A stretch of 64,000 nt of DNA. Origin: an uncultured Flavobacteriales bacterium. GTDB taxonomy: Bacteria > Bacteroidota > Bacteroidia > Flavobacteriales_G > Salibacteraceae. The position numbers and the translations under genes are program-made. The stretch is from contig CAJXZP010000001.1 of NCBI GenBank assembly GCA_913062955.1, forward strand, positions 1-64,000, in the 5' to 3' direction. The notes under the pieces were generated by a model that was given only the letters and a program-made list of their open reading frames with translations, had not been told where the DNA came from and did not search any database. Positions 17,567 to 55,432 of this stretch are shown here, one piece after another (position 1 is the first letter of the stretch; every line of letters begins with the position of its first letter).

Positions 17567-19273
17567 TTAATGAGAACTATACCTTCTTTTTCTAGAATAA
17601 CCGATACCTAGACCTAATAGTATGATAACAACAATGGGTATTGCAGTATTAAATATTTGCCATTTACGTCTTTGCTTTGTAACTATTTGCTTGTTTAATA
17701 GGCGAAGTTTAAATTCTTTAACTCTCGATAAAATTAACCCATCGTCTTCTAACAAGTAGCTCAGGCTATTCATTATAAAATCAGTATTCCCGTACGTCCG
17801 ATTGGTAAAGCGATAGTATCCTAAGTCCATAAACTTTTTGCCGTCTTTTGATACATCATTTATGATAATATTGGCATCAGAAACAACAAGCATTTTGTTT
17901 TCCGGGCTTTTTTGTTGAAACTTAAACTCGGGATTCTCCGATATTTGTTCACTTATTCTACCGGTAAAAACAGATTCAAATTCCCCCTCTAATAAAACAC
18001 CAATTATTTGTTCTCCCTTATTGAAACGTCTTTCATCTGGTGGATCTCGTAAGATGTTTAAACTAACTCGAGTAGGAACATTGACTACTTTTGAATAGTG
18101 TGAACTTAACAATAGAGGTGTTTTTTGTATGTTTTTTGCTCCCACCGTATCAATACTACCTGCATATTGAGAGGCAATTGCATCCACATTATTGGTGATG
18201 GGGTGCTTTACGTTATTGAAAATTAATGGGTGGTAATACCAAGGAAATAATTCTATTTTGGGTTGATCCCCGTTCATTCCTGTAATTACAGAAATAGGTA
18301 AGGATTGAATGTCCATCACAAAATCTGAATTTATTCGGACTCCATATTTAAAGAGTTGATCATTCAGGTTTAAATCCTTAGCGAACCCAATACTAATTCT
18401 GTTTTTTCGTAAACTATCCAAATCGACTACCGCATTTTCAATAAACCAAAGTGTCTTACCTCCGTTCATGATAAACTGGTCTAAAACGTATTTATCTTTT
18501 TCGCTAAATGCCGAATCCGGGCCTGCAATAATGGCTGCAGAATACCCTTTAAGCGCATTCAATTGGCCATTAATCCTCACTTCTGCATAGTTGTAATATT
18601 CTCCAATAGATCGCATGGCAGATTGCAACTCCATTTTGGAAGCTTCCCCATGACCTCTTATTATGGCGACTTTTTTAGGGTGAACCAAAGTGGCTTTTTT
18701 TATGGCACTGGAAATTTCATATTCCAATTGTTGGATGGAATTGTTTAACATAGCCTCTGGTGTAGCACCCATTGACTGTTTTAGTAATTGGATAGGGAAT
18801 TCTTTTTCTCGATACGCTAAGATGGCTCCTGGAAATACAATTTGTTCGGAGGTTTTATCCCCTTTTCTGGTGGTTAAGTTGGAGTATTTCAACCCTTTTT
18901 CTGAGAGTGATTTGTAAACGTTCTGTCGTACTGATTTATCCGGGTTGGCGGATGGATCAATAAATTCATATTGAATATTGTCACCTCCATAAACCCGCAT
19001 TTCATCTAAAATCTCCTTCGTAGAATTCTGTAGTTGTTTAAAACTGGAAGGTAAGTCCCCGTCTAAGTAAACTCGGAAAAAAACGACATCCTCCAAATTG
19101 GAAAGTTGCGTTTTTGTAAACTCATTTAAAGAGTATCTATTATCGGTTGTTAAGTCAAATCGCTTAAAGAATAAGCCACTCGAAAAATTGACCAATACCA
19201 ATAAGGTAACAAAAATCCCTAGCGATATAAAGGAGTTTTGTTTGTTGTTTTTTTTCATTTTTGAATTGCGCAT
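17567..19273 (-). CDS. gldG: Gliding-motility ABC transporter substrate-binding/auxiliary protein GldG
   Basis: 568-aa protein with an N-terminal membrane segment (about 15-35), a long extracytoplasmic region of the ABC_transp_aux type (ATPase-like fold, e.g. KVAIIRGHGEASKMEL and AAIIAGPDSAFSEKD), and a C-terminal membrane segment (VVIILLGLGIGY) with a basic tail. In Flavobacterium, GldA, GldF and GldG form an ABC transporter needed for gliding. GldA is not in this window. Its ATG is 1 bp from the gldF stop codon, so the two genes are translationally linked. Gliding itself cannot be inferred, because many non-gliding Flavobacteriales keep gldFG. Confidence 0.92.
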   Translation of the reverse strand: MRNSKMKKNNKQNSFISLGIFVTLLVLVNFSSGLFFKRFDLTTDNRYSLNEFTKTQLSNLEDVVFFRVYLDGDLPSSFKQLQNSTKEILDEMRVYGGDNIQYEFIDPSANPDKSVRQNVYKSLSEKGLKYSNLTTRKGDKTSEQIVFPGAILAYREKEFPIQLLKQSMGATPEAMLNNSIQQLEYEISSAIKKATLVHPKKVAIIRGHGEASKMELQSAMRSIGEYYNYAEVRINGQLNALKGYSAAIIAGPDSAFSEKDKYVLDQFIMNGGKTLWFIENAVVDLDSLRKNRISIGFAKDLNLNDQLFKYGVRINSDFVMDIQSLPISVITGMNGDQPKIELFPWYYHPLIFNNVKHPITNNVDAIASQYAGSIDTVGAKNIQKTPLLLSSHYSKVVNVPTRVSLNILRDPPDERRFNKGEQIIGVLLEGEFESVFTGRISEQISENPEFKFQQKSPENKMLVVSDANIIINDVSKDGKKFMDLGYYRFTNRTYGNTDFIMNSLSYLLEDDGLILSRVKEFKLRLLNKQIVTKQRRKWQIFNTAIPIVVIILLGLGIGYSRKRRYSSH

Positions 19274-19274
19274 A

Positions 19275-20003
19275 TTACCACTTAAAACTATCCAATTTCA
19301 TTTTCGTTAGAAACAAAAAGAAACCGCTTAAACTTAAAAAGTAGATTAAATCTCGGGTGTCAATAACTCCTCTACTCATGGATACATAATGTTCATTTAT
19401 TCCTAACTGTAGGATAAACGTATCTAAACCTGAAATGGTTGAGAAATCACTGATTTGTTCAAAGCCAACATAAAAGAAAAAGCTTAAGAATACAGCGAGT
19501 ATGAATGCTACGATTTGATTTTTTGAAAGTGCCGAAGCAAAAATCCCAATCGCCACAAATCCGGAGGCTAAGAAAAGGAGTCCGAAGTATGATCCCCAAG
19601 TTGCTCCTTCATCAATTCCGGGGGATATACTAATTTGTTTAACCGACCAGTAATAGATTAAAGTGGGAAGTAATGAGAAGATTACAATGAGTAAACCGGC
19701 AATAAATTTAGCGAAAATTATTTGCCAATCAGAAAGAGGTTTTGTTAATAATAACTCGATGGTTCCTGTACGCCACTCCTCGGAAAAACTTTTCATAGTC
19801 ACCGCAGGAATTAAAAACATAAATACCCATGGCGCAATAATGAATAAAGTGTCAATATTGGAGTACCCTGAATCCAAAACGTTAAAGTTACCTGGAAACA
19901 CCCACATGAATAAGCCAATAGCTGCCAAAAACACGATAATGGCCAAATAGCCGGTTAATGAACTAAAAAATACAGAGATTTCTTTTTTAAGAAGAGCGAT
20001 CAT
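19275..20003 (-). CDS. gldF: ABC transporter permease GldF
   Basis: Integral membrane permease of 242 aa with six predicted transmembrane segments. The pattern MIALLKKEISVFFSSLTGYL at the N-terminus and SEEWRTGTIELLLTKPLSDWQIIFAKF after the second helix is the ABC-2 permease signature. It pairs with GldG directly downstream. A near-consensus -7 box (TAAATTCG on the minus strand, about 20025-20032) in the gap after the PID-CTERM-like gene's terminator suggests its own promoter. The partner ATPase GldA must be encoded elsewhere. Confidence 0.93.
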   Translation of the reverse strand: MIALLKKEISVFFSSLTGYLAIIVFLAAIGLFMWVFPGNFNVLDSGYSNIDTLFIIAPWVFMFLIPAVTMKSFSEEWRTGTIELLLTKPLSDWQIIFAKFIAGLLIVIFSLLPTLIYYWSVKQISISPGIDEGATWGSYFGLLFLASGFVAIGIFASALSKNQIVAFILAVFLSFFFYVGFEQISDFSTISGLDTFILQLGINEHYVSMSRGVIDTRDLIYFLSLSGFFLFLTKMKLDSFKW

Positions 20004-44928: not shown

Positions 44929-46092
44929 ATGAAAAATATTTTAATAGAGCGTTTTCTACATATTCGAAACAAGTCAGTTGCGATTTGTTCCCCTCTTCAA
45001 ATTGAAGATTATGTGGCCCAACCCATTGCGGATGTTAGTCCTCCAAAATGGCATTTAGCCCATACTACCTGGTTTTTTGAAACTTTTATTTTGAAAGTAA
45101 TTGCAGATTATGAGGTGTTTAATGAGGAGTATGATTATTTATTCAATTCCTACTATAATCATATTGGAGAGAGGGTAGGGAGAGGTAAGCGTGGAGATAT
45201 TACTCGTCCTGGAGTGGAAGATATTCTAGAATACCGATCGTATGTAAATGATCAAATGGTACTGCTAATAGAGCATTGGACCCTGAAACAGTTTGACGAA
45301 TGGAGACCTATTGTTGAATTAGGATTACAACATGAACAGCAACACCAAGAGTTACTTTGGACGGACTTAAAGTTTATTTTAGGAGTAAGTCCCATGTTTC
45401 CGGTTTACTCAAAAGAAAATCCAATTGATAATAAGTGGGAAAAGAATGATATGAATTTTATTTCCATAAAGGAAGGTGTGTATGATATTGGATACCAAGG
45501 GGATGAATTTTGTTTTGATAATGAACAAGGGCGGCATAAAGTTTTCTTGCATGATTATAAAATAGCAGATCGGTTAGTGACTAACGAAGAATTTATGGAG
45601 TTTGTAGAATCTGGAGGTTACGATGACTTTAATTTATGGCATGATGAAGCGTGGCATTGGATTCAAGATAATAACATTGATTCTCCATTGTATTGGCGTC
45701 ATATTAATGGTGGCTGGTTTGAATTTACGTTAACTGGTTTGGAGGAAGTGGACCCCCATAAAGCGGCCACACATATTAGTTATTTTGAGGCTTGGGCCTA
45801 TGCACAATGGAAAGGGATGCGTTTACCCACAGAATTTGAATGGGAGGTTGCCAGTGAAAACTTTGAGTGGGGTCACCGTTGGGAATGGACCAATAGTGCT
45901 TACTTGGCTTATCCTGGGTACAAAAAAATGGCAGGCGCCATTGGTGAATACAATGGCAAATTTATGGTAAATCAAATGGTACTTAGAGGATGTTCGGTAG
46001 CTACACCCGAAGATCATTCTAGAAAAACGTACCGAAATTTCTGGCCAGCCAGTTCAAAAACACAATTTACGGGTATTCGTTTAGCCCAATAA
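44929..46092 (+). CDS. egtB: Ergothioneine biosynthesis sulfoxide synthase EgtB
   Basis: 387-aa non-haem iron enzyme that joins a cysteine-type thiol to hercynine with oxygen. N-terminal DinB-like domain (about 1-165): likely Fe ligands His45 (LAHTTWFFE), His135 and His139 (HEQQHQE). C-terminal formylglycine-enzyme-like domain (about 170-387) ends in RNFWPASSKTQFTGIRLA. It is shorter than mycobacterial EgtB (about 430 aa). Whether it takes cysteine or gamma-glutamylcysteine cannot be read; the absence of egtA and egtC nearby hints at cysteine. The gene is 17 bp from egtD and has its own -7 box. Ovothiol or another histidine thiol is an alternative product. Confidence 0.88.
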   Translation: MKNILIERFLHIRNKSVAICSPLQIEDYVAQPIADVSPPKWHLAHTTWFFETFILKVIADYEVFNEEYDYLFNSYYNHIGERVGRGKRGDITRPGVEDILEYRSYVNDQMVLLIEHWTLKQFDEWRPIVELGLQHEQQHQELLWTDLKFILGVSPMFPVYSKENPIDNKWEKNDMNFISIKEGVYDIGYQGDEFCFDNEQGRHKVFLHDYKIADRLVTNEEFMEFVESGGYDDFNLWHDEAWHWIQDNNIDSPLYWRHINGGWFEFTLTGLEEVDPHKAATHISYFEAWAYAQWKGMRLPTEFEWEVASENFEWGHRWEWTNSAYLAYPGYKKMAGAIGEYNGKFMVNQMVLRGCSVATPEDHSRKTYRNFWPASSKTQFTGIRLAQ

Positions 46093-46109
46093 AAAAATAC
46101 GAACACTAC

Positions 46110-47072
46110 ATGATTACAACTACGCAATTATCTCAATTTGCTATAGATACCATGGAAGGTTTAAGGAAACCACAAAAGACCATGATGTCGAAATATTTTT
46201 ACGATGCCAAAGGAGATGGCATTTTTCAACAAATTATGGCCATGCCCGAGTATTACTTAACGCGTTCGGAAATGGAAATTTTCCAGCACCAAAAAGATGA
46301 AATTTTCAGCCAAGTATGCCCTAAAGGATTACCTTTTAATTTGATTGAATTAGGAGCTGGGGACGGTTCTAAAACTAAAGTGTTGTTGAAACATTTTTTG
46401 AAAATGGGAATTGATTTCACTTATTACCCGGTGGATATATCCCAAAACATTTTGAAAGAGCTGGTAGCGATGTTAAAAGAAGAAATTCCGGAATTGGATG
46501 TGCGTCCGCTACATATGGATTATTTTGAGGCCCTGAAACATATGGAACAATTTACGGGACGTAAAAATGTAACCATGTTCTTAGGTTCCAATATTGGAAA
46601 TTTTAGTGAAGAGCGCTTAGAGGAGTTTTTGATCAAATTACAAGGCTATTTTAAACCCAATGATAAATTACTTTTGGGAGTAGATTTAAAAAAAGATCCT
46701 GATATTATCCTCAATGCCTATAACGATAAACCTGGAATTACGGCTTCGTTTAATATGAACTTGTTGGATAGAATGAACAATGAATTGGGTGCTGATTTCG
46801 ACTTGCATGGCTTTAAGCATTACGCCATGTATGAGCCCGTAACCGGTGAAGCGCGTAGTTATTTGGTTTCTTTAAAAGAGCAAGTGGTACGGTTGGATGA
46901 ATTAGATTTTGAAGTTGCCTTTGAAACAGGGGAGTGTATTCATACTGAAATTAGTAAAAAATACTCCGTAAGTAGACTAAAAGAACTATCTGAAAAATGT
47001 GGTTTTGTGACCTCTAAAAACTTCTATGACACCAAGGACTATTACGTAAACACTATGTGGGAAGTGCTGTGA
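46110..47072 (+). CDS. egtD: Histidine N-alpha-methyltransferase EgtD
   Basis: 320-aa SAM-dependent methyltransferase that trimethylates L-histidine to hercynine. Characteristic blocks are YFYDAKGDGIFQQIMAMPEYYLTRSEMEI near the N-terminus, NLIELGAGDGSKTKVLL (SAM site) and FLGSNIGNFSEERLEEFL. It follows egtB in a two-gene operon ended by a terminator. Both products together would make the sulfoxide intermediate of ergothioneine; a C-S lyase (EgtE) is not in the window. It is unlikely to take tyrosine or another substrate, because the pairing with EgtB is diagnostic. Confidence 0.92.
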   Translation: MITTTQLSQFAIDTMEGLRKPQKTMMSKYFYDAKGDGIFQQIMAMPEYYLTRSEMEIFQHQKDEIFSQVCPKGLPFNLIELGAGDGSKTKVLLKHFLKMGIDFTYYPVDISQNILKELVAMLKEEIPELDVRPLHMDYFEALKHMEQFTGRKNVTMFLGSNIGNFSEERLEEFLIKLQGYFKPNDKLLLGVDLKKDPDIILNAYNDKPGITASFNMNLLDRMNNELGADFDLHGFKHYAMYEPVTGEARSYLVSLKEQVVRLDELDFEVAFETGECIHTEISKKYSVSRLKELSEKCGFVTSKNFYDTKDYYVNTMWEVL

Positions 47073-48615: not shown

Positions 48616-51600
48616 CTAGAAGGTTTTGAATTGAACCTTACGTCTTTTCTCTACAATATAGAAAGACATATACATCCCATCTTGCGTGGATTTCAAGGTC
48701 AAGGGGATATTGTTTTTAGAAAGCTTATAGGTGTCTCCTAATATGGATTCGTCCATAGTTAAAGTATACGCTCCATTAGGAAGGTAAAATTCAAAATGTC
48801 CGTCAATATCCGTTAGTGTATTGTAAGTTCGACCTCCAGTTGCCGATATTTTTATCCGCGACATATCAAATGTTTTATCCTTATCAGCGATGGCAATTTT
48901 TTGACGATCCAGAATTACATCTCCATAAACTTTTACACCTCTCATAAATGGAATTAAAATTTGACCACTATTTAAAATAGTAATAGAATCCTCTAACTCA
49001 GGAAACCAACCTTCCATTTTTTCTAAAGCAATAATAGAAATAGGATATGTTCCAATTGGCATATTTGCTAATTCCGCTTTTCCTTTTGCATTGGTAATAA
49101 TTTCATTACCATCCACTCGTACAATAATGTTTTCCATGACAGGTTCATCATTATCTTTCATGTGGTTACCATTTACATCGTAAAATACAATAACCGTATT
49201 GCTCGCATGACGTTTCTTTGCATATGGAATAGGAATCCCAAATTCTTTGCGAATACTTACGTTAATATTTACATTACTATTGGTGTTCGCAGCTGTATTA
49301 ATAGATTCACCCGTGAAGTTATTAGCTTCGTAAATAGATCCATAATTGCTGGTAGAATAACTGAAGTTAGCTTCCAAACCATATCTCCATCCCGAATTAG
49401 TGAAATAATACATTTTTGGATAACACCCTATATTATGACCATTAAAGCGATTATTATAACTATAGGTAAAGGAGTTCTCCATTAAATAATGCGGGTTTTT
49501 AAAAAGGTATTGATTTTGAATTGAAACTCTAAATGATTGAGGAGTAACACCTTCTCGTTGCATGTTGACTAAGGCATTTGTAGATAAAGCACCGTAGTTA
49601 TACTTCATACTCAAGTTCCAAACTCTAAATCGTAAAATACTAGATAATTCTAAAGTGAAATAATCTGATTTTACAGGAATATCTAGCGGATTATTGTAGG
49701 CCGCTTTTACGAAAAAGGAAGAAAGGAAGTTCTTTCTGAAATCGAAGTTTGAAAATCTGAAAGTGGCTCCACGAGAGTGTACTCTATTGGCCGAGTAATC
49801 GGAGATGTTATAGAATATTCCGGGTTGAATTACACCTAGAGTGGTGGACTTACTCATCACGATATTGTTAAATAACATCTTTTGAGTATATCCGAAATTA
49901 TTTCCATTGGTTTTAAACGACTCCATGTTTTGGTAGTTGTTGTTTACGTAAACATCTAACCCGGGTTTAATCGAAATGGTAGTTCTATGGTTTCCACTAA
50001 TACGTTTAAATCCTCCATAGCTAAATTTTGGATCATTATATTGAGCGCTAACTCTTGTTTTTATTTTTTTCTTAAAATATATGGTAGAAACATTTCCACT
50101 AATAAGATAGCCTTGAACCGTTAGTTCCCGTCCAGTAGTATTTGATGTCCTATTGGAACCAGCCACCATAAAATTGAAAAAATATTTTCTTTTAATGTTA
50201 AAAGAAGGACTCAACGTAGCTACATCAATAGTCGTATTGTTTTTGTTGTTGATCCCTCTTCCTATTTTTCCTGATATTTTAAAATCTTCACTCAATTTGT
50301 AAGAATGACCTAATCCAAAAGATTCTGTATTTGATTTTTTGAATAGACTTGGGCTACGTACATAGAATGCCGAAGTTTTTTGATTTACAGCATATTTATG
50401 AGAAACCTTTATTCCTTGACCAGCGTTGTAAACTCCTATTAGGTTCCCACTAACTTGTCCGATTTCAATCGTTGATTTCTGATTGAAATAACCAATGTAC
50501 CAAGGTACCGATTTAAGTAAATCATCGTTCCAATAGGCTTGTGAATAGTTTAATTGCGTGAAATATGCAATACTCGAGTTTTTATCAATTTGTTTATATC
50601 CACGCATATTTATAGACATAAAAGTAAAGTCAGATAATACATTTTGAATATTTGCTTCTACCGTTAATGGTAAATTTGGATATCCAAAAGGGGATACCTT
50701 CAGGCTATTCGGTAATTTAATTAAATCGAGTTTATTGGTTTTTTTATAGATATCTGAACCTAATCCTTTGGGTTCTTTCGAATTAATATAAAGGGTATTC
50801 TTTTTCATCGTCAAGTTCGCATTCGGATTATGGTTTTGAATGGAAACTTTACGAAAATTTCTTTGATTTAAACCCGTAACAGATGCTCTAAATGCGAGAG
50901 TAGTATCGTGTCCAGCAAGTAAGGTGATGGTTTTTGATTTGTTTTTCAATACATTGTCATTCGTATCCTTTAAAATTAAACCTTCTGTGGTACGTTGATC
51001 AATTAAAATGTCTTGACTAAAATTCCCGGTATTGATAATATTGTAATTAAAATCTTTTTCCTGTTCATCATTTTTAAAATAGATACGCGTACCTTCTTGA
51101 ATCGCTGCTTCCCAAGTAACTACTTTTTTCGTGAATAGAGAAAAGTAACCGCTTGCGATTTGTTCATCTTCTTGATTTATTAAAAAGGTGTTTATGATGA
51201 TCTCCGTATTACTATTCATCATCTTTTTTGGAATAAGAATAAGAGGAATGAATATTTTTTCTTCGGGTTGAAGTTTATAAGCTTTATTATCGGTTAGATT
51301 CATCCATCCCGAAGGAAACAGGATATCTACCATGAAAATTTGTTCTTCGGTCGTTTTGTTGAGTATCGTTAAAACGTTAGAAATAATTTCCCCTTTTTTT
51401 AATTCAATCGCTGTATCACTGAAAAAAATGTTGACTTGATTGGGAATGAATTCTTGTACAGGTTTAATGCTATTTGACGTATCTGATAATGTGGTGTCTA
51501 TTGTGGCGGTGGAAGTGTCTCCATCAATGGCCACAAGGGAGTCTCCATTAATACCTTTAACTTGCGTAAACGCAAAAGAGGTACAAAAAAGCAATAACAA

Positions 51601-51651
51601 AATTGTTAGTGTTTTTGGCAGGATAGAACGATATGTGTGGTGAGGAAACAT
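48616..51651 (-). CDS. Usher-like outer-membrane barrel protein of a putative fibre system
   Basis: 1011-aa protein, last of four co-directional genes. It has a signal peptide (about 1-30, FAFTQ), then about 250 residues of Ig-like beta domains (e.g. VNIFFSDTAIELKKGEIISNVLTI). A long region (about 300-810) of alternating hydrophobic strands rich in Tyr, Phe, Asn, Ser and Gly looks like a 20-24-strand outer-membrane barrel. After about residue 815 come two beta-sandwich domains: a SdrD_B/Cna-B-like one (VIVFYDVNGNHMKDNDEP) and a CarboxypepD_reg-like one (ISATGGRTYNTLTDIDGHFEFYLPNG). N-terminal domain, large barrel and C-terminal Ig domains is the plan of fimbrial ushers, but I see no plug and no clear FimD motif. 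It is possibly a distant analogue. No TonB box or plug domain was found. Confidence 0.72.
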   Translation of the reverse strand: MFPHHTYRSILPKTLTILLLLFCTSFAFTQVKGINGDSLVAIDGDTSTATIDTTLSDTSNSIKPVQEFIPNQVNIFFSDTAIELKKGEIISNVLTILNKTTEEQIFMVDILFPSGWMNLTDNKAYKLQPEEKIFIPLILIPKKMMNSNTEIIINTFLINQEDEQIASGYFSLFTKKVVTWEAAIQEGTRIYFKNDEQEKDFNYNIINTGNFSQDILIDQRTTEGLILKDTNDNVLKNKSKTITLLAGHDTTLAFRASVTGLNQRNFRKVSIQNHNPNANLTMKKNTLYINSKEPKGLGSDIYKKTNKLDLIKLPNSLKVSPFGYPNLPLTVEANIQNVLSDFTFMSINMRGYKQIDKNSSIAYFTQLNYSQAYWNDDLLKSVPWYIGYFNQKSTIEIGQVSGNLIGVYNAGQGIKVSHKYAVNQKTSAFYVRSPSLFKKSNTESFGLGHSYKLSEDFKISGKIGRGINNKNNTTIDVATLSPSFNIKRKYFFNFMVAGSNRTSNTTGRELTVQGYLISGNVSTIYFKKKIKTRVSAQYNDPKFSYGGFKRISGNHRTTISIKPGLDVYVNNNYQNMESFKTNGNNFGYTQKMLFNNIVMSKSTTLGVIQPGIFYNISDYSANRVHSRGATFRFSNFDFRKNFLSSFFVKAAYNNPLDIPVKSDYFTLELSSILRFRVWNLSMKYNYGALSTNALVNMQREGVTPQSFRVSIQNQYLFKNPHYLMENSFTYSYNNRFNGHNIGCYPKMYYFTNSGWRYGLEANFSYSTSNYGSIYEANNFTGESINTAANTNSNVNINVSIRKEFGIPIPYAKKRHASNTVIVFYDVNGNHMKDNDEPVMENIIVRVDGNEIITNAKGKAELANMPIGTYPISIIALEKMEGWFPELEDSITILNSGQILIPFMRGVKVYGDVILDRQKIAIADKDKTFDMSRIKISATGGRTYNTLTDIDGHFEFYLPNGAYTLTMDESILGDTYKLSKNNIPLTLKSTQDGMYMSFYIVEKRRKVQFKTF

Positions 51652-51657
51652 TGGTGC

Positions 51658-52287
51658 TTAGAGGTTCTCTTCTAGTCTAAATTTGATGTTTAATTGAAAA
51701 ATTCCAGGATTAAAATCGTATCCTGGTTTTACTCTAATGTCAATAGTGAAATTGAATTCATCATAGTTTGTGAGGTAGGAACCGGGGCCGTTTGTATTTA
51801 GTGTACAAGTTCCGGATGGCGTTACAGGTAACATGGGAGCAATAATGTCAAGGATGTCCATGTGGTTATTGAAAGTACTATAAAATCCATCCATGGGTGA
51901 AGTTCCGCAGTTGTTCCTTACTCGTATTTCAAGTGCATCTACTGTTGGATTTTGTCCTCCTCCTGTACCATACAAATTAAGTTCTTCCCATTCATCTGCT
52001 GGTGTGCCAGCGGATGGGTTGTTTTCTATAGTCATGATTAGACTCCAAGAACATAAAGGATCTATAACCGCTTTATTTTCAACTCGAACTTTAATTTTTG
52101 CAACACCATTAATCGTAAATCCTCCCGTGTATCTGGAAAAAGAATCGAACGTTAACAAGGAGTTAACAGAAGTGTTTTGCTCTATTTCAACTAACCCACA
52201 ATGTATTTGACTATGGGCTGGTTTAAACAGAAATAGTAATGAAATTACTGTGAAGAATAATGTTTTTACGTGGGGAATGGTGTGCAT
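51658..52287 (-). CDS. Putative minor (tip) subunit of the fibre system
   Basis: 209-aa exported protein with a signal peptide (cut after AHSQ at about 27). The mature part is beta-rich with four cysteines (IHCG, DPLCSW, NNCG, SGTCT), likely two disulfides. The C-terminal strand NPGIFQLNIKFRLEENL has the same pattern as EPGVYTMYVQYILLEDQ of the neighbouring putative major subunit. An SW-containing strand is also shared (LCSWSLIM and TVSWDLYA). It has no long alternating strand at its mature N-terminus, unlike the major subunit, so a terminal or adhesive position is possible. It starts 62 bp after the major subunit gene, past a hairpin, and is followed 6 bp later by the usher-like gene. Confidence 0.65.
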   Translation of the reverse strand: MHTIPHVKTLFFTVISLLFLFKPAHSQIHCGLVEIEQNTSVNSLLTFDSFSRYTGGFTINGVAKIKVRVENKAVIDPLCSWSLIMTIENNPSAGTPADEWEELNLYGTGGGQNPTVDALEIRVRNNCGTSPMDGFYSTFNNHMDILDIIAPMLPVTPSGTCTLNTNGPGSYLTNYDEFNFTIDIRVKPGYDFNPGIFQLNIKFRLEENL

Positions 52288-52302
52288 TATATCTGTTTTA
52301 AT

Positions 52303-52333
52303 AAAGGAAGTAACTTCTTAAGTTACTTCCTTT
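52303..52333 (-). promoter_or_regulatory. 14-bp hairpin between the putative major and minor subunit genes
   Basis: AAAGGAAGTAACTT (52303-52316) and AAGTTACTTCCTTT (52320-52333) form a perfect 14-bp stem with a 3-nt loop, starting 16 nt after the putative major subunit stop codon. Only a weak T-rich tract follows on the minus strand. Such a hairpin could partly terminate transcription or protect upstream mRNA, so that the major subunit is made in excess over the minor subunit and usher. Confidence 0.7.
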
Positions 52334-52349
52334 TAATTTTAAATGCGAT

Positions 52350-53132
52350 CTATTGATCTTCTAACAAAATGTACTGAACGTACATTGTGTAAACACCTGG
52401 CTCAGCATAAGCACCTGCGTTTAAAGAAGCAGTAACTAAATCTTCAGATGTTCCACCATCAGCGTTGTGTGCCATTGGGAAAATTGCAGGTAAACCTGGC
52501 AAAATTCTGTAATCAATTACATAGTAAAAGTCAGATGTGATACCGTTTTGGTTCATATAAGACCCACCTTGCATAAAATCGTTACCAGCGATACCAGAAA
52601 CACCTTTATGTCCAGCGATGTATTTGTCATCTGTAGAAGGTGCAGTGTTTGTTCCTGCATTCACGTATAAACTGTTTTGTGCAGAAGGAATAGAAGAAGG
52701 AGAGAATGCTGCTGAATAATCAGAGAATGTTCCTGCTGATGCTGCAGCACCACTGTTTGCTTGAGATTGACGTAATTCTAATAAACTTAATGGTAAATCT
52801 TCGATTGCATTAATGTTTGAATTTCCGTAATCAATTTGTTGATCCCAAAAAGTAGGTCCGTTTGTTCCAGTTGATCTTCCAACTGCATATAAATCCCAAG
52901 ATACAGTAGAACTTACTTTTAAAACTGTTGCACCATAATGGGTAATCCCTGCGTAATACTCATCGATATCGTCAAATACAAATTCGATTTGGTCTGGAGT
53001 GGTCATATCCAATTGTAATACTGGTTGTAGATCCAGTGTTACTGTTACATCTTTTTCATCAATTAACTGTGCGTTTACAGTTGTCATTCCTGCGATCATC
53101 ATCGCTGCTGTTAGTAAGCTTACTTTTTTCAT
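52350..53132 (-). CDS. Putative major subunit (pilin-like) of the fibre system
   Basis: 260-aa exported protein with a signal peptide (cut after VNAQ at about 22). The mature N-terminus, DVTVTLDLQPVLQLDM, alternates hydrophobic and polar residues like a donor strand. The body is beta-rich and low in Lys, with long Gly/Ser/Ala/Asn stretches (SQANSGAAASAGTFSDYSAAF). The C-terminal strand EPGVYTMYVQYILLEDQ is shared in pattern with the neighbouring minor subunit. No cysteines are seen. It follows the chaperone-like gene by 36 bp and ends just before a strong hairpin. It could also be a secreted surface protein of unrelated role; I rate the subunit call as probable, not proven. Confidence 0.68.
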   Translation of the reverse strand: MKKVSLLTAAMMIAGMTTVNAQLIDEKDVTVTLDLQPVLQLDMTTPDQIEFVFDDIDEYYAGITHYGATVLKVSSTVSWDLYAVGRSTGTNGPTFWDQQIDYGNSNINAIEDLPLSLLELRQSQANSGAAASAGTFSDYSAAFSPSSIPSAQNSLYVNAGTNTAPSTDDKYIAGHKGVSGIAGNDFMQGGSYMNQNGITSDFYYVIDYRILPGLPAIFPMAHNADGGTSEDLVTASLNAGAYAEPGVYTMYVQYILLEDQ

Positions 53133-53168
53133 AATAATTAGTGATTATTGGTTAGTAAAAATTTTTAT

Positions 53169-54056
53169 TTATTTTATTGTTATTTGCATTTTTGCGGCTT
53201 GAATCTCTTCAGATCCTTCATAGTCAAAAACTCCGATTGCCGTATAGTCCCCAGGTACCATTGCTGGCATTTTGAAAACAAAGTCTCTTATTAACCCAGG
53301 TACAATGGTGAATTTTTTTACTGTTAACCTGGTTTTTGAACCCGTTGCATTGTTAGTCATATCAATATATGAGGTACAATATGCAATTCCATTACCTTTA
53401 TTTTCAGCCTCTAAATAGATGATGTTTTCATCATTTACAATTTCCATTTTAAAACCGGTCATTTCAACGTTATCTGTTTTAACTGTAGGTGGATTCTGGT
53501 ATACAAATACTCCGAAAGCAAATGTGGGTACAACTCCTAATGCCACCGTTCCTGAACCCTTCTTTGCGGGTTCTAATTGCTTTCTAGCTTCCGCCTGTTC
53601 AATCATAATAATGGACCATGCTGCGCGATTACCGGATTCATCGTTTGGAATGGCTACGGTAAAGGAAATTTCTTTTTTCTCTCCTGCCTTTAACTCAAAA
53701 AAGGTGGGGGTAACATTCATCCATTGTGACAGGGAAAAATCTCCAGTTCCAACAGGTAGGAAAGAACTTTTTCCTTTTCCGTTCATATTGAAGTCATACA
53801 TATTGACTTTAAATTCCTTACTGGATTCCGTGTCATTGTACATTTTAATTTTATAGGTTTTTGATTCACCTGGTTTTAAATTTAAATGAAAGTGAGCTGG
53901 ACTTACAGAAATTCCTTTGGTGTCCACTTCTTTATCTGTGTCGTTGGAATCTGTAGCGATGGTTTCAATTTTCAAGTTGGTTATTTGGTAACCAGAAGCG
54001 AAAGCGAATGAGATCATCATTGTTGCTAGTAGAGAGAGTGATAATTTTTTTAACAT
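53169..54056 (-). CDS. Putative periplasmic chaperone (PapD/DUF916-like Ig fold)
   Basis: 295-aa exported protein with a signal peptide (cut after FASG at about 20-22). Two beta-sandwich modules are visible. The first (about 48-155) opens ISVSPAHFHLNLKPGESKTYKIKMYNDTES and contains VTPTFFELKAGEKKEISFTVAIPNDESGNRAAWSIIMIE. This is the arrangement of PapD-type chaperones and DUF916 proteins: VTP, then a Pro-Gly-Glu or Ala-Gly-Glu turn, then a WxIxxIE strand. The second (about 185-295) is another Ig-like domain. The first gene of the operon, it has an exact -7 box at 54119-54126. Assembly of neighbouring subunits is inferred from context. A general surface-protein role cannot be excluded. Confidence 0.72.
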   Translation of the reverse strand: MLKKLSLSLLATMMISFAFASGYQITNLKIETIATDSNDTDKEVDTKGISVSPAHFHLNLKPGESKTYKIKMYNDTESSKEFKVNMYDFNMNGKGKSSFLPVGTGDFSLSQWMNVTPTFFELKAGEKKEISFTVAIPNDESGNRAAWSIIMIEQAEARKQLEPAKKGSGTVALGVVPTFAFGVFVYQNPPTVKTDNVEMTGFKMEIVNDENIIYLEAENKGNGIAYCTSYIDMTNNATGSKTRLTVKKFTIVPGLIRDFVFKMPAMVPGDYTAIGVFDYEGSEEIQAAKMQITIK

Positions 54057-54409: not shown

Positions 54410-55432
54410 ATGAGGGCTGTGACTAAGAGATTGATAATGTTGCTATTGGGTGTTTTCCTTTTAGATGGTGGATGGGCTCAACAAGTGGACAGTACCCAGA
54501 CAATAGTACATGAATGGCCATATATTAAGGATGTGTCCAATAACGTGATGTTTAATGTACGAGCGATCATGCGTTCGTATGATTTAAATATTCGGCATGT
54601 AGATTCAGGTAACGAATTGCATATTTCACCCTTAGGGCAAATGAACTTGGGTTTGGGGATTAATTTCAAATGGATTGGAATTGCATACAACTTTGGGCTG
54701 CCATCCTTGGATCAACATATTAGGAAGTATGGAGAAACTAAAAAACAAGACCTGCATATTGGGATGTATGGAAATCGGGCATCGGGCTTTATTAATTTAC
54801 AGCGATACAAAGGTTTTCATTTGAGTAATTATACCGATACCCTATCAGGTAATCAAGTTAAACTGCCCTCATTGGAGATGTATTCCATTAATTTCTCTGG
54901 TTTATATTTTCTGAATCACGATAAATTTTCTTTTAAGGCCGCTTATGTTCGGAATGCAATTCAGAAGAAAAGCGCAGGTAGTTTAGGGGTCGGGGCCTAC
55001 CTAACGTTTGATTCCTCTACATCTGATGGCGTAATGGGTGGGTCTGAAATACCAGATAGTATTCAAAATCAATTTGAATTTTCAGCTATTTGGTCTCGAA
55101 CTTTTGGAGTCTCTATAGGATATACCTATACCTGGGTAATTGGAAATGGTTTTTTCGTGAATGGAACCTGTGTTCCGGGAATAGGAGCAAAAAAGATCCG
55201 GTTAACACTTAGTGATAAAATGGCCGAATTGGAAGCCGGAATATCCTTTCGATTGGAAGCCAATGTAGCGATGGGATACGAGGCTGATAATTGGTTAGCA
55301 GGCCTTACCGCATCTACCTTAAATCAGTTTTACGAAATTGAAGGTTTAGTGGTTTCACCGACTTCAACGAGTGTGAAATTTTTTGTCGCTAAAAGGTTTT
55401 CCATCCCTAAAAGAACGAAAAATAAAGGTTAG
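54410..55432 (+). CDS. DUF4421-like outer-membrane barrel protein
   Basis: 340-aa exported protein with a signal peptide (cut after GWAQ at about 24). The rest alternates strands and turns, with typical phrases NVRAIMRSYDLNIRH, GIAYNFGLPS, YRN-like turns and a strand-rich C-terminus (SVKFFVAKRFSI). I recognise this as the DUF4421 pattern of Bacteroidota outer-membrane proteins; no function is assigned to that family. It is divergent from the fibre operon, but any shared control is only inferred. The stop overlaps the next gene tail by 4 bp. Confidence 0.8.
   Translation: MRAVTKRLIMLLLGVFLLDGGWAQQVDSTQTIVHEWPYIKDVSNNVMFNVRAIMRSYDLNIRHVDSGNELHISPLGQMNLGLGINFKWIGIAYNFGLPSLDQHIRKYGETKKQDLHIGMYGNRASGFINLQRYKGFHLSNYTDTLSGNQVKLPSLEMYSINFSGLYFLNHDKFSFKAAYVRNAIQKKSAGSLGVGAYLTFDSSTSDGVMGGSEIPDSIQNQFEFSAIWSRTFGVSIGYTYTWVIGNGFFVNGTCVPGIGAKKIRLTLSDKMAELEAGISFRLEANVAMGYEADNWLAGLTASTLNQFYEIEGLVVSPTSTSVKFFVAKRFSIPKRTKNKG

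Follow-up and report, generated by a model that had tools for sequence, protein, structure and literature searches.

Background

Most of what is known about surface fibres in Bacteroidota concerns type V (FimA/Mfa) pili, and chaperone and usher genes were reported as not identified in P. gingivalis (PMC5789003). In Gram-positive bacteria, the protein WxLIP (DUF916-DUF3324) has been modelled in complex with the WxL protein that it partners, into which it inserts a beta-hairpin strand (PMC10599100). Two entries of the PDB, 9ikj/9ikk (TLP-1/TLP-2), contain 16 chains each of proteins that are homologous to the major subunit described below. Our search of the open-access literature, with preprints outside its scope, returned no paper on these TLP structures and nothing relevant on chaperone-usher systems in Bacteroidota.

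In the present study, we analysed a window of 64,000 nucleotides (the whole stretch of DNA under study) and found four neighbouring genes that most likely build a surface protein fibre the way E. coli builds pili. As in the chaperone-usher systems (FimC/FimD, PapD/PapC, CfaA, CsuC), the locus combines a PapD-type chaperone of two Ig-like domains, a predicted large barrel with Ig-like domains on either side, small subunits that have a common C-terminal strand and an N-terminal extension, a stem-loop 3' of the major subunit gene and, in relatives, two-domain tip-like subunits. Unlike the type V pili, it has chaperone and usher-like genes, and its subunits have neither a lipobox nor a FimA-type domain. 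We estimate a probability of about 0.8 that the four genes encode a divergent chaperone-usher-like pathway, in which assembly works as in the chaperone-usher systems.

Gene order and conservation of the operon

An earlier, sequence-only reading of the window had described four minus-strand open reading frames as a candidate operon. We recovered all of them at the coordinates given there, in the order chaperone, major subunit, minor subunit and usher-like barrel:

53169..54056, minus strand, PapD/WxLIP-like periplasmic chaperone gene (295 aa, two Ig-like domains)
52350..53132, minus strand, major subunit gene (260 aa)
51658..52287, minus strand, minor subunit gene (209 aa)
48616..51651, minus strand, usher-like outer-membrane protein gene (1011 aa)

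The four genes are conserved together. The same order recurs in eight other Bacteroidota operons, which come from two genomes of the same genus, three other genera of the family (L031/L005, L032/L006 and L034/L007), Flavicella marina (L020) and two Flavobacteriaceae MAGs (L021 and L022); the flanking genes differ, and those downstream of the four-gene set vary among the eight operons. The chaperone gene lies apart from the other three genes in two genomes (G039 and G001), and the usher-like gene is broken in another (G040). In comparison with same-genus relatives, dN/dS was 0.03-0.15 for the chaperone, the major subunit and one minor-subunit pair, which are under purifying selection; dS of the usher-like gene was saturated in the same comparison. 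Because the order recurs with different flanks and dN/dS is 0.03-0.15, the operon is more than a chance arrangement. The absence of a type IX sorting signal, claimed earlier, also held, as none of the four proteins matched a type IX sorting domain in Pfam at E up to 10.

In a Polaribacter MAG (L023, 6986-7732), the chaperone gene is truncated and the major subunit, minor subunit and usher genes are gone. The divergent neighbour of the operon in the window (54410-55432) has a strong DUF4421 match and adjoins the operon in L019 and L029 as well. Elsewhere in the window, two genes at 44929-47072 resemble the ergothioneine pair EgtB/EgtD, and two at 17567-20003 resemble the gliding-motility genes gldG and gldF, in both cases by eye only.

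The chaperone

The only Pfam family that the chaperone matched over the cut-off was WxLIP_PGBD (PF06030; 32.6 bits, cut-off 27.3), in the N-terminal domain. PapD_N gave no match at E up to 10 for this protein, and it was over the cut-off in none of the 42 genomes of the order that were searched, although it was found in the E. coli control. With signal peptides removed, the chaperone was compared by profile with seven PapD-type chaperones of E. coli K-12 over about 197 columns; the probability was 79.5 in one direction (E 1.5e-5) and 92.7 in the other (E 4.1e-7), versus 0.3 for the reversed control. A smaller chaperone alignment (A5), also without the signal peptide, gave only 10.9; therefore, the result with the PapD profile leans on the broader chaperone alignment. 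In the predicted model, pLDDT exceeded 90 for most of the stretch from residue 46 to 300, and its top fold match was Enterococcus WxLIP, over both domains (Z 14.9), followed by CfaA (13.1), CsuC (12.6), FimC (12.2) and others. Judged by its profile, the chaperone is remotely homologous to PapD. The sequence-only reading had described two Ig modules with VTP and PGE/AGE turns (which are present in the sequence) and had expected a match to PapD/FimC, which was borne out by profile comparison and fold match. Matches of the chaperone profile to synaptotagmins in hmmsearch were local (50 residues) and were set aside.

One segment of the chaperone may be the strand that is lent to the subunits:

53496..53543, minus strand, putative donor (G1-like) strand, chaperone residues 172-187 (ALGVVPTFAFGVFVYQ), after a low-confidence loop

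This strand is conserved across close homologues, and in the alignment with PapD-type chaperones it falls on their G1 region. The model has low pLDDT at about residues 161-180, ahead of the strand; the F1-G1 loop is flexible in free PapD-type chaperones. Unlike in PapD, the Arg8/Lys112 anchor is not kept: in the alignment, the position of Arg8 is occupied by His55, and that of Lys112 by Gly182 or Phe184, according to the register, with no Lys. Arg and Lys are retained at these positions in lineages L053, L055, L058 and L059.

As WxLIP is both the best Pfam match and the best fold match of the chaperone, and has been modelled as inserting a hairpin strand into a WxL partner (PMC10599100), the locus might specify a WxL-like surface layer, in which the WxLIP-like protein stays in a stable surface complex, the barrel only exports or anchors, and no strand-exchange fibre is formed. 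We consider this unlikely. In contrast to WxLIP, the locus offers no WxL partner: neither a WxL domain nor a DUF3324 match was found in the four proteins (Pfam, E up to 10), and the chaperone ends in MQITIK and has no C-terminal transmembrane helix. In addition, a homologue of the subunit is known as 16-chain assemblies, and two-domain tip-like subunits are encoded near the usher in related operons.

The subunits

The alternating N-terminal stretch that had been pointed out in the major subunit was confirmed, and six of its residues (D34, Q36, P37, L39, L41 and M43) are invariant in 10 homologues:

53004..53051, minus strand, N-terminal extension of the major subunit, residues 28-43 (DVTVTLDLQPVLQLDM), conserved, putative donor strand

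The C-terminal strand described for both subunits (PGVYTMYVQYILLE and PGIFQLNIKFRLEE) and the SW strand are likewise present. The major and minor subunits are homologous to each other, and C30, C79, C127 and C161 of the minor subunit are invariant. The first subunit carries the extension and the second is without 11-17 residues of it in five of the six lineages compared, as judged by eye from the printed sequences; the exception is G025, in which the second subunit has the extension. A missing extension fits a tip subunit that would accept but not donate a strand, and the minor subunit is probably the tip or first subunit.

The TLP proteins are homologous to the major subunit (E 6e-46) over the whole mature length and begin with the same N-terminal extension, and differ from it in that the identity is only about 40%. 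Because these entries exist, the subunit is known to others; thus, the subunit as such is not new, whereas the gene system to which it belongs and the spread of that system are. The solved homologue retains the full mature N-terminus, and no lipobox was seen by eye in either subunit, in agreement with the earlier claim that they are not of the FimA/Mfa type.

Neither subunit matched a Pfam family at E up to 10, and, in a further difference from the chaperone-usher systems, the subunits have no sequence similarity to FimA. In a profile comparison without signal peptides, the major subunit family was related to the short subunits of many other Bacteroidota with a probability of 97.4 (reversed control, 0.2). 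The short subunits had at first shown weak similarity to FimA (E 4e-4), which was gone once the signal peptides were removed and was withdrawn. The spore coat U profile (PF05229) had no match in the genome, and none in any control either. The predicted model of the major subunit had a pLDDT of about 30, so the incomplete Ig fold is one that we infer. When the chaperone and the major subunit were folded as a fusion for strand donation (stops read through, TAA=G), only the chaperone half was confident.

Outside the window, the same genome (G000) carries the major subunit gene a second time (64% identical; contig C94, 2164-2931; L026, L103), as a lone copy that no chaperone or usher gene adjoins. 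A similar second copy was found in G008 (C1:2435565-2436272).

Expression marks of the major subunit gene

The effective codon number of the major subunit gene is 37.2, the second-lowest of the 50 open reading frames in the window (mean, 47.3), and its dS is lower than that of the neighbouring genes. A stem-loop follows the gene:

52303..52333, minus strand, 14-bp stem-loop, then TTTATT, just 3' of the major subunit gene

Its folding z was -4.9 versus shuffles that keep base composition only, not dinucleotides. Most related operons have stem-loops of differing sequence at the same place, and none was found there in L032, L088, L089 and L098. The stem-loop probably serves as a partial terminator or stabilises the mRNA. 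The major subunit is set apart by all three marks, namely codon bias, low dS and the stem-loop.

These marks of an abundant structural protein bear on another explanation, namely that the barrel secretes two small Ig-like proteins as separate surface proteins with no polymer. Both subunits are indeed small and secreted, and a polymer in this organism is presumed; however, a homologue of the major subunit is present as 16 chains in each of two PDB entries, and the subunit genes occur in tandem copies in related operons (e.g., L098). Together with the expression marks, these observations make the export of separate proteins quite improbable.

The usher-like protein

The model of the usher-like protein, of moderate overall confidence (pLDDT 75.6, pTM 0.49), is divided as follows:

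50698..51435, minus strand, N-terminal Ig-like domains, usher-like residues 73-318 (model)
49240..50679, minus strand, barrel, usher-like residues 325-804 (model and fold comparison)
48649..49209, minus strand, two C-terminal Ig/prealbumin-like domains, usher-like residues 815-1001 (model)

A poorly predicted stretch (residues 24-70) lies ahead of the N-terminal Ig-like domains, in which Pfam gave a weak TMEM131_like_N match (residues 91-155); the C-terminal domains gave weak CarboxypepD_reg, SdrD_B and SpaA matches. The protein has no sequence similarity to FimD, and the Pfam usher family (PF00577), found in the E. coli control, was over the cut-off in 0 of 42 genomes of the order.

In Foldseek, the first eight rows for the model were all FimD/PapC, with E of 2.6e-12 to 2.5e-10 over roughly 785-846 columns, and TonB-dependent receptors entered the list at about 1e-6. 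In VIA-align, the barrel of MtrB ranked first (Z 21.0) and the translocation domain of FimD had Z 14.8. Of the single large barrel with a plug-like domain that the sequence-only reading had expected, the model bears out the large barrel, with flanking Ig-like domains. The barrel of chaperone-usher systems has 24 strands and an inserted plug; in our one model, of moderate confidence, about 26 strands are seen and no plug is inserted.

A TonB-dependent or SusC-like transporter with accessory surface proteins as neighbours, which a large barrel with CarboxypepD_reg-like similarity and the receptors among the fold matches might suggest, is very improbable, as Pfam at E up to 10 found no TonB-dependent plug or receptor domain, neither a TonB box with plug in the gene nor a plug in the model was seen, FimD/PapC were far ahead in Foldseek, and a PapD-type chaperone is encoded in the same operon.

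Proposed assembly pathway

In the chaperone-usher-like pathway that we favour, the periplasmic chaperone would bind the secreted subunits, probably lending them a strand, and the usher-like barrel would receive the chaperone-subunit complexes at the outer membrane and export the subunits as an extracellular fibre. The minor subunit, without the N-terminal extension, would be exported first and form the tip. Major subunits would come next, and residues 28-43 of each would enter the groove of the preceding subunit. Against this proposal we count the low pLDDT of the subunit model, the lack of FimA/FimD sequence similarity and of a plug, the rank of MtrB above FimD in VIA-align, the absence of the Arg8/Lys112 anchor, and the extension of the second subunit in G025.

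A broader proposal, that this is a separate chaperone-usher class across Bacteroidota, with its own subunit family, a plugless usher barrel and a chaperone ancestor common to PapD and the Gram-positive WxLIP, has in our view an even chance of being correct.

Distribution in Bacteroidota

The sequence-only reading, otherwise largely borne out, had considered the operon not typical of Bacteroidota. This did not hold, because a profile search, with a profile built from Bacteroidota sequences, found the chaperone family in 64 of the 395 genomes sampled from this phylum, which belong to 28 of 171 genera. Among the 14 regions that we read, one of which was chosen by its usher and one of which was cut by a contig end, 12 had an usher-sized gene near the chaperone gene. 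In most of the regions read, small subunits, the chaperone and a barrel of 897-1396 aa were encoded side by side; for most of the distant regions, we assigned the usher role from the size and location of the gene and from partial matches to profiles. In relatives, no usher-like or subunit protein that was tested reached a named chaperone-usher family, and Pfam and NCBIfam name almost none of the proteins of the system. The set of four genes described here represents a single lineage within a larger group that has no annotation.

If roughly one in six of the sampled genomes has a second route of this chaperone-usher-like kind, it would account for surface fibres in many Bacteroidota, assign a gene cluster to the TLP structures and link the PapD chaperones with WxLIP. 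With profiles built from our alignments, the genes could be named in annotation pipelines.

In several related regions, a subunit of 342 to 478 aa with a C-terminal subunit domain is encoded near the usher; by analogy, these two-domain subunits resemble tip adhesins of the FimH type and may be tip-like. The usher-like protein also varies among relatives. In L090 (5226-8747), a SPOR domain at its C-terminus was over the cut-off, and in L095 (8898-12449) it was just below; this peptidoglycan-binding domain could locate the usher-like protein to the division site. In two Polaribacter-type operons (L021:9310-14649 and L022:9379-13896), a charged repeat of the ADSIRIAQERIIAEQIAQRKQ type, several hundred residues long, precedes the Ig domains of the usher-like protein.
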